Positions 1,039-48,247 of a DNA stretch of 64,000 nucleotides are shown here, one piece after another (positions within the stretch are counted from its first letter, which is position 1; the number at the start of each line of letters is the position of its first letter). A model generated the notes under the pieces. It worked only from the letters and a program-made list of their open reading frames with translations, was not told where the DNA came from and searched no databases. Both the position numbers and the translations under genes were made by a program. Source of the DNA: Chloroflexota bacterium (GTDB lineage Bacteria; Chloroflexota; Anaerolineae; Anaerolineales; Anaerolineaceae); the NCBI GenBank assembly GCA_021779955.1, contig JAJXZS010000034.1, positions 1 to 64,000 of the forward strand, written 5' to 3'.

Positions 1039-1674
1039 ATGTATTTTGCAATCGAAGGTGTCATCGGTGTGGGGAAGACAACGCTTGCCCGAATGCTGCG
1101 CCCCGTTTTCAACGCTGAACTGGTGCTCGAAGTATTCGAAGAGAATCCGTTCCTGAGCAATTTCTACTCCGACCGTGAGCGGTACGCCTTTCAAACCCAG
1201 ATCTTCTTCCTGCTGAGCCGTTACCATCAGCAGCGCCGCAATATCTCCGACAGGCTAGGGGAGGTGCAGGCGCTGATCAGCGACTACACTTTCGAGAAAG
1301 ACGCCTTGTTTGCCCGGATCAACCTCAAGGGCGACGAGTTGGAGATGTACTACAAGGTGCAGGAAGCCCTGGCCGAAAAGATCAGCAAACCGGACCTGAT
1401 CGTTTACCTCCGCGCCAGCACCGACACGCTGATGCGCCGGATTGCCATGCGCGACCGGCCGTACGAACGCTCGATGCAGCGGGAGTACATCCACCAACTC
1501 AATGAATCGTATGACGATTTCTTTGCCAACGGTTTTCACACTACCCGCATCCAGGTGATCGAAACCGACGGACTGGATTTCGTCGGGAATGCGGGTGATT
1601 TCGAAGAGGTTCAGAAGCAAATTCGGGAGGCGCTTTCTCTGCCCCCCATCCAACCCAAGCTGCCGATTGCTTGA
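1039..1674 (+). CDS. Deoxynucleoside kinase (dNK family)
   Basis: The 211-residue protein should phosphorylate deoxynucleosides (dA/dG/dC class) in the cytoplasm for nucleotide salvage. Seen: N-terminal P-loop GVIGVGKTT, an early ENPF block (EENPFLSNFY) followed by FQTQIFFLLSRY as in bacterial dAK/dGK enzymes, and the arginine-rich lid MRDRPYERSM. Length is normal for the family. A paralogue at 3502-4158 lies on the other strand, and the DnaA-box region sits between the two. Its stop lies close to the next gene's start, so the two are probably co-transcribed. The exact base preference cannot be read from sequence. Confidence 0.9.
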   Translation: MYFAIEGVIGVGKTTLARMLRPVFNAELVLEVFEENPFLSNFYSDRERYAFQTQIFFLLSRYHQQRRNISDRLGEVQALISDYTFEKDALFARINLKGDELEMYYKVQEALAEKISKPDLIVYLRASTDTLMRRIAMRDRPYERSMQREYIHQLNESYDDFFANGFHTTRIQVIETDGLDFVGNAGDFEEVQKQIREALSLPPIQPKLPIA

Positions 1675-1685
1675 CTCGAGGATTC

Positions 1686-2687
1686 ATGCGTATCAACCGC
1701 GATATCCTGCTTAATCTTGCACGCGAGAACGCCGCCAAAATGGCAACTGCCGACCACAGCCTGGTCTGCATCTACCTGACTGGTTCACTGCTGAATGACG
1801 AACCGATTCTCGGAGGTCTGACCGATATCGATCTGATCTGTGTGCACGACCGCCCTCAGGATATCCCCCGCCAGATCACGCGCATCACCGAAGAAGTTCA
1901 CCTGGATATCGCCCACCTGACTCAATCGACCTACGACCATCCGCGCCGCCTGCGAACCGACGCGTGGATCGGCGGCGCGATTTGTAACGATCCCAAAGTC
2001 TTGTTCGAAGCCGTGCACTGGTTCGATTTCACGCGCGCCAACGTCGCAGCCCAGTTCTGGCTGTCTGAAAATGTGGCCGCGCGCGCCAAATCGTTTTCCT
2101 CCCGCGCACGCCAGACCTGGCTTGCCCTCTCAGAAGAATCCATCTCCCAGGGGCCTAAGCGCCAGCGAGAATACCTTGGCGCGATCGACGATTGCGCGAA
2201 TGCCCTGGCCTCTCTGACAGGAATGCCCCTGCCCATCCGGCGGCTCGGCGTGGACCTCCCCGGCCGGCTCGAAGCAATCGGCCATACGGATCTATTGGGC
2301 GGTCTCGTCGAGACATACTACAACGAATCGATCACCCGCGAAAAGTTCGACTCGTGGATGCCTGCCTGGCGGGAAACGATGGCGGCGCTGAAATCCATCC
2401 CGGACGCGCCCGTGAGCCTCAGCCGTTACCGAAAGGCTTATTACGAAAGAGCGATCACCGCCCTGGCCGACGAAAGGCCTGCCGCAGCTTTATGGATCCT
2501 GCTGCGCACCTGGACCCTGGCAGCCCAGGTGCTTCCAAGATCGGAGGAGTCTTTCAAAGCCTGGCAGAGCTTCAGTAAAGATCTCGAACTGGACTCGAAG
2601 CACTTCAGCGATCGCGTCGAGAGCATCGACCACCTGATCGACCGTGTGGACGAAGCCATCGAGCAGTGGCAGCAAAGCAACCAGTGA
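1686..2687 (+). CDS. Nucleotidyltransferase-fold protein, function unknown
   Basis: The 333-residue protein shows a polymerase-beta-type nucleotidyltransferase signature: TGSLLNDEPILGGLTDIDL gives the GS...DxD pattern near residues 36-54. The rest is helical and not recognised, perhaps a HEPN-like or substrate-binding helical domain. I chose ATG 1686 because GAGGA lies just upstream; a TTG at 1671 would overlap the preceding stop and has no ribosome site. It follows the deoxynucleoside kinase by 11 bp. Possible roles include transfer of a nucleotide to an antibiotic, protein or RNA. Substrate unknown. Confidence 0.7.
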   Translation: MRINRDILLNLARENAAKMATADHSLVCIYLTGSLLNDEPILGGLTDIDLICVHDRPQDIPRQITRITEEVHLDIAHLTQSTYDHPRRLRTDAWIGGAICNDPKVLFEAVHWFDFTRANVAAQFWLSENVAARAKSFSSRARQTWLALSEESISQGPKRQREYLGAIDDCANALASLTGMPLPIRRLGVDLPGRLEAIGHTDLLGGLVETYYNESITREKFDSWMPAWRETMAALKSIPDAPVSLSRYRKAYYERAITALADERPAAALWILLRTWTLAAQVLPRSEESFKAWQSFSKDLELDSKHFSDRVESIDHLIDRVDEAIEQWQQSNQ

Positions 2688-2697
2688 CGCGCCCGGC

Positions 2698-3000
2698 TGT
2701 GGATAACTCCTCAAGAACCTGTGGATAATTACCTTTTCGTGTGGAGAAACCACCTGACGCATGTTGAAATTAGAGTCGAAAGAGATACGAAATTTGTGGA
2801 TAAATTGCCTTTTATCCACAGATTTTTTAATGCCTTTTAGCAAGGCAGGATAGCCTGTGGAAATCCCCTTTTTATCCACAAGATATTCGCCAGGGATTCT
2901 TGCGGGATTCTCGTAATCCATCCTTAAGGTTGAATACGGTGAGAGAGCAATGAACGGAGTATCTTAAATCACTTTGAATGTTCTTCACATATCCACACCC
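2698..3000. other. oriC: Candidate chromosomal replication origin (DnaA-box cluster)
   Basis: Five perfect DnaA 9-mers (TTATCCACA or its complement) lie in 183 bp: 2698-2706, 2720-2728 and 2795-2803 on the minus strand, 2812-2820 and 2872-2880 on the plus strand. Near-matches are at 2740-2748, 2856-2864 and 2989-2997. The following 100 bp (about 2960-3060) is AT-rich with TATAAATATGAATTATAAAG, a plausible unwinding element. The stretch has no gene. No dnaA lies in the window, but dnaN (47 kb) and parS-like sites (43.4 kb) support an origin-proximal location. Perfect clustering at this density is very unlikely by chance. Confidence 0.82.
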
Positions 3001-3086
3001 CCTACTGCAATTACGATATCTTCAAACCTATAAATATGAATTATAAAGGTTAAGTAATGGGGGTAATGGAAGTGTATAGACAGCGA

Positions 3087-3115
3087 TTGTATTTATTATC
3101 GAAATCTTGTACAAT
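3087..3115 (+). promoter_or_regulatory. Probable promoter of spoVS
   Basis: TTGTAT (3087-3092) and TACAAT (3110-3115) are 17 bp apart, about 70 bp upstream of the spoVS start codon. It lies at the edge of the candidate origin. Confidence 0.5.
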
Positions 3116-3187
3116 TTCCAATAATCATACGAATATGCCCCTTCAGCAATATTCAACTACCACACATGGTCGAAAAGAGAGGTTGAC

Positions 3188-3448
3188 ATGGATGTGATCA
3201 AAGTGAAAGCGAATTCAAGAACAGCTGCCGTCGCAGGGGCGATTGCGGGGGTGATGCGCGAACACAAGCACGCGGTCATTCAAGCTATCGGCGCTGGCGC
3301 GGTAAATCAATCGGTAAAAGCGCTGGTACTGGCCAAAGGATATCTTGCGGAGGACGGGATTATCATCGTCTGTATACCAGAATTTGTGGATGTAGAAATC
3401 GACGGGAAAGTACGTACTGCCGTCAAATTGACAGTAGAGCCCCGCTAG
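3188..3448 (+). CDS. spoVS: Stage V sporulation protein S (SpoVS/Alba-like)
   Basis: The 86-residue protein matches SpoVS almost end to end: VKANSRTAAVAGAIAG at the start, QAIGAGAVNQSVKAL in the middle and a beta-rich end with VDVEIDGKVRTAVKL. SpoVS is a small Alba-like protein needed for late spore development in Bacillus, but it is widespread in non-sporulating bacteria, where its role is unclear. Nucleic-acid binding is expected from the fold. GAGAGG precedes the ATG. It sits directly beside the DnaA-box cluster, so a nucleoid-related role is conceivable, though inferred from position only. Confidence 0.95.
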   Translation: MDVIKVKANSRTAAVAGAIAGVMREHKHAVIQAIGAGAVNQSVKALVLAKGYLAEDGIIIVCIPEFVDVEIDGKVRTAVKLTVEPR

Positions 3449-3501: not shown

Positions 3502-4158
3502 TTAATCTTGTGATAGTTCATCGCGGGCGAAGATAACCTCATCTTTGCCCGTGAGCTTTTCCTGCACCTTGTTGATGATCAATTGCAAATGGCGGGGGTG
3601 AGCCACATAATCCAGGTCGTCAGCAGGAACTGTGAGCACAGGGCAGAGGGTGAAGTGCTGGATCCAGTTCTCATAAAGGGAATTCAGGCGATCAAGATAT
3701 TCGGGAGCGATCTTGCGCTCGTATGAGCGGTCGCGCATGGCGATGCGTGCAAGCAGCGTCGGCACAGACGCCCGCAGGTAGATCACCAGGTCAGGCGGGG
3801 GCAGGTAGGTGGCCAGAGTCAGGTAAAGGTCGCGGTAGGTCTCGTGATCGCGCAAGCTCATGCTTCCCTGGACGAAAAGGTTTTGCTCGAAAACTTCGGC
3901 ATCCTCGTAGATGCTGCGGTCCTGGATCACCGACCCATCCACACGAAGCAGTTCCTGATGGATGCGCAGACGGTGGGTGAGGAAGAAGATCTGCGATTGG
4001 AAGCTCCAGGCGCGCATGTCTTTGTAGAAATCTGCCAGGTAGGGGTTTTCGGTGACGGGTTCGTAGAAGGGCATGCTGTCGAGCTGCTCAGAGATCATAT
4101 TCACCAGGGTTGACTTGCCGACGCCGATGTTGCCTGCCACTGCAATAAATTTTTTCAT
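3502..4158 (-). CDS. Deoxynucleoside kinase (dNK family), second copy
   Basis: The 218-residue salvage kinase has P-loop GNIGVGKST, TENPYLADFYKD (the ENPY block), FQSQIFFLTHRL, DRSIYEDAEVF (the DRS motif) and the lid MRDRSYERKI. These are the classic dAK/dGK landmarks, more complete than in the 1039-1674 paralogue. I start it at ATG 4158 because GAGGCGAGG lies just upstream; eight further in-frame codons exist 5' of it. It converges on spoVS. With the first kinase it could form a dAK/dGK-type pair, but no subunit interaction can be shown here. Confidence 0.9.
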   Translation of the reverse strand: MKKFIAVAGNIGVGKSTLVNMISEQLDSMPFYEPVTENPYLADFYKDMRAWSFQSQIFFLTHRLRIHQELLRVDGSVIQDRSIYEDAEVFEQNLFVQGSMSLRDHETYRDLYLTLATYLPPPDLVIYLRASVPTLLARIAMRDRSYERKIAPEYLDRLNSLYENWIQHFTLCPVLTVPADDLDYVAHPRHLQLIINKVQEKLTGKDEVIFARDELSQD

Positions 4159-4268
4159 GCCTCGCCTCGAGACCTTCCTCATTTATGGATGAGATTTCCT
4201 AGAGTATAGCATCGGCAGGATCGCGCGAGGTTTAAAAAAAGGCGCTGCCGTCTTAAAATATTTGGATT

Positions 4269-43370: not shown

Positions 43371-43478
43371 TGTTTCACGTGAAACATTCGGGAGACCAAA
43401 CCGGGTATTGTTTCACGTGAAACTTTTAACGGGGGAATTATCCTGGCAGTCGGGCCGGCATCTGTTTCACGCGAAACG
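43371..43478. other. parS: Three parS-like ParB-binding sites
   Basis: The palindrome TGTTTCACGTGAAACA occurs perfectly at 43371-43386, with one change at 43409-43424 and two at 43463-43478. This 16-mer is the conserved chromosomal parS sequence where ParB nucleates to segregate origins. Three sites in 108 bp form a cluster about 41 kb from the DnaA boxes. No parA or parB lies in the window. The gene-free stretch 43367-43596 holds nothing else apparent. Confidence 0.88.
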
Positions 43479-46992: not shown

Positions 46993-48120
46993 TCAACCGA
47001 GGTGCATGGGCATAATCACATGCACGAAATTGTCGCTGCCGACAGGCCTTACGACACCCGGCGTATTATTGGCATTGACCTCCAGGGCGATATTGGGCGA
47101 GCCGACGACTTCGAGGACCTCGCGCAGGTACTTGACATTAAAAGCGATCAGCAGCGAGCTTCCTTCGATCGTGGCTTCGATCTGGATATCGCTTTTACCG
47201 GTTTCTTCGGTCTGAGCGTTGACTTCGATCTTGCCAGGCCCGCCTTCATCCGGAAGAATATTCAGGCGCACGACGTTGTTGCCCTCGCGGGCGATAATCT
47301 CGGCCTGCTTACAGGCTTTGAGGAAGGCAGGGGTGGAGACGAGAGCGCGGGTCTTGTACGATCTTGGGATGATGGCGCGATAGTCCGGGAAGTTCCCGTC
47401 GATCAACTGCGAGACAAGTTCGGCGTTCTTCAAGTGGAAGATCACCTGGCCGCGCCCCTGGGGAATGACCATGGTGACGGTCTTATCGTCCTCGCCGGAG
47501 ATTCGAGCCAGTTCGCTCATGGCACGGGCAGGGATGATGATGGAAAAGCCCTGGCGGGCAGGATTTCCAAGCAGTTCCTTGCGCACAGAAATACGGAAAC
47601 CGTCAGTGGCAGCCAGGGTGATCTCGTTTTCGGCCGTCTCGAGTTTGACACCCTGGAGTACGGGGCGGGCTTCATCCGCGGAAGCGGCAAAAGCAACCTG
47701 CTGGATCATTTCTTTGAAGGCCGACAGGTCAAGCTCGATACCTTCGTTCAGGTCTGGCACGGGAATGGGCGGGAAATCCTGCGCATCGATGCCTTTGATA
47801 TCGTGGACAGAGGCGTTGCAAACCACATTGAGCGTTTGTGTTCGCGTATCCAGGCTGAGAACCACGGGCTCGGGAGGAAATGTGGCGATCAGGTCGGAAA
47901 AAGTGCGCGCGGGGACCGTGACCGAGCCTTCTTCCTGAATTTGGGCGGGGATCCAACAAGTAATTCCGAGTTCAAGGTTGGTCGCAGAAAGGCGCAGTCT
48001 GCCTTCATCCGTGGCAATCAGGACATTGGCCAGCACCGGCAGCGTGCTTCGTGGTGAAACTGCTCGCGAAACGACGCTCAGTCCGTGAGCCAGGTTTTGT
48101 TGGGTTACTGTCACTTTCAT
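46993..48120 (-). CDS. dnaN: DNA polymerase III beta sliding clamp
   Basis: The 375-residue clamp subunit encircles DNA during replication. It begins MKVTVTQQNLAHGLSVVSRAV. The three clamp repeats are visible: VSPRSTLPVLANVLIATDEG, then FAASADEARPVLQGVKLETA, and the C-terminal peptide-binding end VRPVGSDNFVHVIMPMHL, the normal termination of DnaN. ATG 48120 follows AGAGGGTG. dnaA, recF and gyrB do not flank it, unlike the usual origin order. Confidence 0.96.
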   Translation of the reverse strand: MKVTVTQQNLAHGLSVVSRAVSPRSTLPVLANVLIATDEGRLRLSATNLELGITCWIPAQIQEEGSVTVPARTFSDLIATFPPEPVVLSLDTRTQTLNVVCNASVHDIKGIDAQDFPPIPVPDLNEGIELDLSAFKEMIQQVAFAASADEARPVLQGVKLETAENEITLAATDGFRISVRKELLGNPARQGFSIIIPARAMSELARISGEDDKTVTMVIPQGRGQVIFHLKNAELVSQLIDGNFPDYRAIIPRSYKTRALVSTPAFLKACKQAEIIAREGNNVVRLNILPDEGGPGKIEVNAQTEETGKSDIQIEATIEGSSLLIAFNVKYLREVLEVVGSPNIALEVNANNTPGVVRPVGSDNFVHVIMPMHLG

Positions 48121-48247
48121 GGACACCCTCTTGGTCAATCTATAGGATAATAATGAGTATACATCACGCGAATAAAAAATTCTAGTCAATCTGGCCCGCG
48201 TGAGAAGCAGCGATTTGGTTGGATGAAAGCTTCAGACGGGAGGAAAA

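Follow-up and report, generated by a model that had tools for sequence, protein, structure and literature searches.

The segment at 2690-3060 of the DNA analyzed here (the window: 64 kb, from the start of contig C12 of a genome of 2.83 Mb in 56 contigs) is almost certainly the chromosomal oriC of this genome, from an uncultured Anaerolineaceae (Chloroflexota) bacterium, as judged from its sequence and that of its relatives. It carries an array of DnaA boxes, a double box with trio-like triplets and an AT-rich tract, it is conserved throughout the family, and it lies at a minimum of GC skew and near parS, all of which agree with the probable oriC proposed by an initial, sequence-only reading. 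The explanation as a whole, namely an origin at 2690-3060 worked by DnaA from a distant dnaA gene, following one separation of dnaA and origin, is given a probability of about 0.93.

Architecture of the putative origin

The features discussed below are the following (coordinates in the window, strand, description):

1039..1674, +, deoxynucleoside kinase gene (PF01712, E 5.3e-38), upstream of the NT gene
1671..2687, +, orphan nucleotidyltransferase-fold (NT) gene, 338 aa, stop codon just before the putative origin
2698..2706, -, perfect DnaA box (TTATCCACA), first of the conserved same-strand pair after the NT stop
2720..2728, -, perfect DnaA box, 22 bp from the first
2740..2748, -, DnaA box with one mismatch (TTCTCCACA), third of the left array, 20 bp further
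2795..2803, -, perfect DnaA box
2812..2820, +, perfect DnaA box, forming an inverted repeat with the box at 2795
2872..2880, +, perfect DnaA box
2981..2997, +, double box by the unwinding element: TTCTTCACA (two mismatches) overlapping ATATCCACA (one mismatch, at 2989)
2998..3001, +, C-rich spacer
3002..3019, +, DnaA-trio-like array, complement read as CTA CTG CAA TTA CGA TAT, degenerate and clearer in relatives
3017..3056, AT-rich tract, probable DNA unwinding element, the least stable 40-mer of 2650-3190
3087..3115, +, probable spoVS promoter TTGTAT-17-TACAAT, aligned in the genus, not called by a consensus scan
3188..3448, +, spoVS (PF04232, E 6.6e-33)
43371..43478, parS cluster with one perfect, one 1-mismatch and one 2-mismatch site
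46993..48189, -, dnaN (PF02767/PF00712/PF02768, TIGR00663)

Five perfect boxes (TTATCCACA), at 2698(-), 2720(-), 2795(-), 2812(+) and 2872(+), occupy 183 bp (2698-2880) in both orientations, as first reported, and these are all the perfect boxes of the 64-kb window in a genome that holds 33. With 33 boxes placed at random, about 1e-9 occurrences of five in any 183 bp would be expected (Poisson), and the next closest same-strand pair of the genome (C6:87575/87597) falls inside a 533-aa ORF; the dense cluster is therefore real and not a product of chance. This ORF on C6 adjoins phage-portal-like and lysozyme-like ORFs, as read from their translations alone.

Other elements of the initial description needed adjusting. 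Its count of three near-matches is roughly right, two boxes carrying one mismatch (2740, 2989) and others, such as that at 2981, two. Its interval enclosed the cluster but stopped at 3000, while the putative origin reaches about 3060, and the AT-rich tract that it recognized does exist, but just beyond that end, at 3017-3056. The flanking genes were correctly named as a predicted nucleotidyltransferase-fold gene and spoVS (PF04232, E 6.6e-33). The AT-rich tract forms a low-stability element beside the boxes (dG per step of -1.047, 99.98th percentile in the window) and lies directly past the trio-like triplets.

This order of elements resembles that of incC and the basal unwinding system (BUS) of Bacillus subtilis, described as boxes and a double box followed, after a short spacer, by trios (3'-GAT-5' consensus, degenerate) that lead into the unwound region (PMC6669920, PMC8287927). 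Among the criteria given for a BUS are at least three trios of the form 3'-NAN-5' (PMC8287927). In the window, a DnaA box stands within 16 bp of the trios (the box ends at 2997 and the triplets start at 3002), and the middle base is right in three of six triplets (CTA, CTG, TTA), not all of them consecutive, so that the array is more degenerate than its B. subtilis counterpart; across Anaerolineaceae, moreover, G (CGA) frequently takes the place of T in the middle. A relaxed box-plus-trio pattern occurs once in the genome, at 2992-3010, the pattern having been loosened to admit this very site. By analogy with the B. subtilis system, on which all steps from binding and opening to helicase loading and firing are modeled here, DnaA made from the distant dnaA gene would bind the polar box array, would be loaded from the double box (2981-2997) onto the trio-like strand (3002-3019), and would open the AT-rich tract (3017-3056) for helicase loading, with replication forks then departing both ways.

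GC skew, parS and the dnaA locus

The initial reading expected the minimum of cumulative GC skew to fall at the cluster, and it does so clearly in the relative G024, to within 11 kb in G013, one-sidedly on the contig of the window, and weakly in a sampled profile of G058. On contig C12 the minimum is at 3,000 over the 304 kb examined, which is weak evidence when taken alone because just 2.7 kb of the contig lies to the left of the cluster; the sign of the skew is also reversed over about 60 kb (~181000-241000), as might result from an inversion, foreign DNA or a misassembly. For G024 (10-410 kb of C9) the skew falls to 211 kb and then rises, the cluster being at 211.7-212.0 kb. The same-genus genome G013 (40-440 kb of C15) has a plateau at 187-198 kb as its minimum, the cluster being located near 187 kb; its absolute minimum, at 198 kb, is 11 kb off the cluster and closer to parS, a further dip, at around 121 kb, reaches nearly the same depth, and dnaA, at 410 kb, sits on the rising arm. 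The skew of G058, integrated from 40 samples of 20 kb (22% of the genome), reaches its minimum at 975 kb and its maximum at 2,880 kb, the cluster and dnaA being located at 1,036 and 704 kb, respectively; a fit gave a residual sum of squares (RSS) of 0.0219 at 960-980 kb, vs 0.0226 near 340-380 kb and 0.0276 at dnaA, so these sampled values agree weakly with the cluster as origin.

The sole parS cluster of the genome, at 43371-43478, is close to the putative origin. Among the genomes listed, 40 family members have both an exact parS and the NT gene, 16 of them on different contigs; in the other 24, where both are on one contig, parS is invariably 2.9-46.7 kb from the NT gene. This comparison took in 53 NT, 48 parS and 26 dnaA places, and the one-contig cases include G031 and G044, in which the box array is absent or displaced.

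Could the cluster be a site for DnaA titration or for regulation, in the manner of datA or DARS in Escherichia coli, with the true origin elsewhere, for example at dnaA? Clusters of this sort exist in other bacteria, and the matches listed for family genomes include secondary same-strand box pairs, such as those at G024:C9:182737 and G057:C15:82984. Against this, the skew minimum and parS are found at the cluster and not at dnaA, the cluster is adjoined by a double box, a trio-like array and an AT-rich tract, and no box cluster is present at the dnaA loci of this genome, G031, G044 or G071. Around the dnaA gene of this genome (contig C30; TIGR00362, E 5e-160), 19 kb contain no perfect box and no cluster, only scattered one-mismatch boxes, 10 vs 6.2 expected for the relaxed motif. 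A titration site at 2690-3060 is thus very unlikely, and the segment is better read as the origin itself. In G024 and G057, which are congeneric species, this secondary pair adjoins an ABC-F-like gene some 29 kb away from the origin and might itself be a titration site.

Conservation within Anaerolineaceae

A search of 101 relatives located the NT gene in 86, and conservation was counted over the 51 same-family loci whose sequence continues for 450 bp or more past the NT stop. In 46 of these 51 testable members the cluster comes after this NT-fold gene, and three of the remaining five carry it nearby. Within 500 bp past the NT stop, at least two perfect boxes are present at 45/51 loci; at least three boxes with up to one mismatch are present at 46/51, and a same-strand pair 20-22 bp apart at 45/51. 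Perfect boxes over all 51 loci number 153, vs 0 for the reversed string, and the array is polar (97/103 minus boxes at most 150 bp from the NT stop, 43/49 plus boxes beyond).

The five loci in which the array is missing directly after the NT gene are those of G051, G044, G034, G052 and G031. The array is found about 650 bp downstream of the NT gene in G052, 3.9 kb downstream, with double box and trios, in G044 (Longilinea, L094), and on the opposite side of the kinase-NT pair in G034. In G031 a box-trio-like site 2.6 kb beyond the NT gene is all that is present, and in G051 there is no array in the stretch fetched around this gene, leaving two of 51 family loci with no box cluster near it; no clear origin could be named in G031, G051 or G071. 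The genome of G031 (a single contig of 2.9 Mb) contains 13 perfect DnaA boxes without a cluster, and encodes a fast-evolving DnaA (end branch of ~2). Its DnaA-box consensus may have changed, given the few boxes, the missing cluster and the fast-evolving DnaA. In addition to its usual array, locus L034 (G022) has a further set of five perfect minus-strand boxes downstream of spoVS, at about 1719-1908 bp past the NT stop.

At 41 of 52 family loci a double box precedes a trio-like array, the copy in the window being among the weaker ones. The trio form was fitted by later triplets 85 times, vs a mean of 27.5 and a maximum of 43 in 2000 shuffles, and the third triplet base was A in 154 of 205 cases, vs 76 in shuffles. 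These statistics required CTA after the box, took the best candidate per locus and left out the first four bases; a slight selection effect persists in them, and relatedness among the loci is disregarded.

Conservation also bears on whether the boxes act as operators through which DnaA would control transcription of spoVS or of the kinase-NT genes. Some promoters are regulated by DnaA, and the cluster is intergenic and upstream of spoVS. However, the probable spoVS promoter (3087-3115), conserved in the genus, stands apart from the cluster, more than 200 bp past the last perfect box; the array is present at 46/51 loci and spoVS in the fetched stretch downstream of the NT gene at 35/52, the array persisting without an adjoining spoVS; the same array follows dnaA in other families; and the skew minimum and parS would be left unexplained. 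Operators are accordingly a highly improbable reading of the boxes. An origin of a plasmid, a phage or an integrated element is another conceivable source of such a cluster, as some plasmid origins have DnaA boxes (PMC6323995), but the locus is syntenic across dozens of family species and chromosomal in G058 (3.57-Mb contig), the 318-kb contig of the window also carries dnaN and tRNAs, and no rep gene was found among the adjacent products searched; the chance of a mobile origin is therefore close to negligible.

Location relative to dnaA, and neighboring genes

The initial reading had noted dnaN 44 kb away and dnaA outside the window. Both statements hold: dnaN is at 46993-48189, and dnaA was found on another contig, C30. 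The same reading took the position away from dnaA for a departure from textbook origins, and here only the position stands, the arrangement being common among bacteria (PMC2275245). Origins away from dnaA are a known kind and not rare, since the survey in PMC2275245 gives 342 of 568 chromosomes with an origin adjoining dnaA at the skew switch, and DoriC, as described in PMC6323995, includes a cyanobacterial origin far from both dnaA and dnaN. Within the family, almost all relatives open to this check have the origin apart from dnaA: in the four genomes with dnaA and the NT gene on a single contig, the two are 94, 225 (G013), 331 (G058) and 3,145 kb apart, the remaining dnaA/NT contig pairs having been compared by eye.

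The oriC of B. subtilis adjoins dnaA, unlike that of the window. Cyanobacterial origins also lie away from dnaA, adjoining dnaN or far from both genes (Synechococcus lividus PCC 6715; PMC6323995), but the consensus in the window is TTATCCACA and not TTTTCCACA, the neighbors are the NT gene and spoVS, and dnaN, at 44 kb, is not adjacent. The E. coli oriC no longer adjoins dnaA either, but the box-trio arrangement, which according to PMC6669920 is not obviously kept there, is kept in the window.

How did dnaA and the origin come apart? In other families of the class, a box array stands directly after dnaA, as in G063 and G089 (both f4), G061 (f2), G395 (f59), G346 (f30) and G109 (f24). These dnaA-linked origins (G089, G395, G109, G346 and others) share with the window the polar array and its 20-22 bp spacing, and G089, G395 and G109 also share the double box and trio array, but dnaA precedes the array there, whereas the kinase-NT pair does so here. 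A box-trio match also lies about 0.5 kb from a dnaA match in G069 (f10). The loci of other families were picked among the matches listed, and 20 stretches were fetched, five of which, all non-family (G218, G132, G353, G144, G404), contain none of the genes searched, some of them ending at a contig edge. Family f12 has the array together with the NT gene, spoVS or both in the fetched stretch of six of eight genomes (G096, G329, G465, G261, G439, G372), dnaN being about 3 kb from the array in G096 and G329; the array of the other two, G309 and G208, is accompanied by none of the searched genes in the fetched stretch.

As the same module directly follows dnaA in other families of the class, a single separation is the simplest history; it is probable that dnaA and the origin were parted on one occasion and that the origin remained intact. 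In a DnaA tree of 12 rows, one branch (support 100/99) splits genomes with dnaA-linked origins from those with separate ones; this tree is unrooted and leaves the direction of the dnaA change unfixed, G031 forms a long branch, the fragmentary G061 was left out and the f12 row is unlabelled. That dnaA would have moved, and not the origin, is suggested by parS and dnaN having stayed near the origin. RNase J was considered as a retained neighbor of dnaA and rejected: it adjoins dnaA in this genome and in G395, but in differing orientation, and no RNase J gene turned up around dnaA in L240-L242.

The NT protein has no family match in Pfam or NCBIfam. Its AlphaFold model (pLDDT 91.6, pTM 0.89) matched aminoglycoside-type and other nucleotidyltransferases in Foldseek (best E 4.7e-4, TM at most 0.41 by query length), and its GS...DxD residues are invariant. 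A likeness to mitofusin, from one weak PDB sequence match (E 0.044), was taken as chance. The gene borders the origin throughout Anaerolineaceae and in some genomes of f12, and a distant homolog (~25% identity) is found in L203 and L205 (f4), on the far side of a dnaA-linked origin. From these positions it can be speculated that the protein has a role in replication and might modify DnaA or another replication factor, although a functional tie to initiation, proposed from gene position beside the origin in the place of dnaA, is unlikely. PF01712 deoxynucleoside kinase genes occur on both flanks of the origin (1039-1674 and 3502-4182), in opposite orientation.

No paper describing this Anaerolineaceae origin was found in the titles and abstracts of the open-licence literature searched. 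The order kinase-NT-boxes-spoVS offers a usable origin landmark in an abundant, little-studied family, by which to orient draft genomes and to derive growth rates from coverage. The locus would also be an example from nature of a dnaA gene that has become separated from its origin with the working parts of the putative origin unchanged, so that one may ask whether closeness to dnaA matters for the control of timing. In other families, very dense box arrays were seen at G355:C44:8749-9216 and G317:C57:3539-3983, with at least 10 and at least 8 pair matches, respectively, in about 0.5 kb, both far larger than the array of the window.
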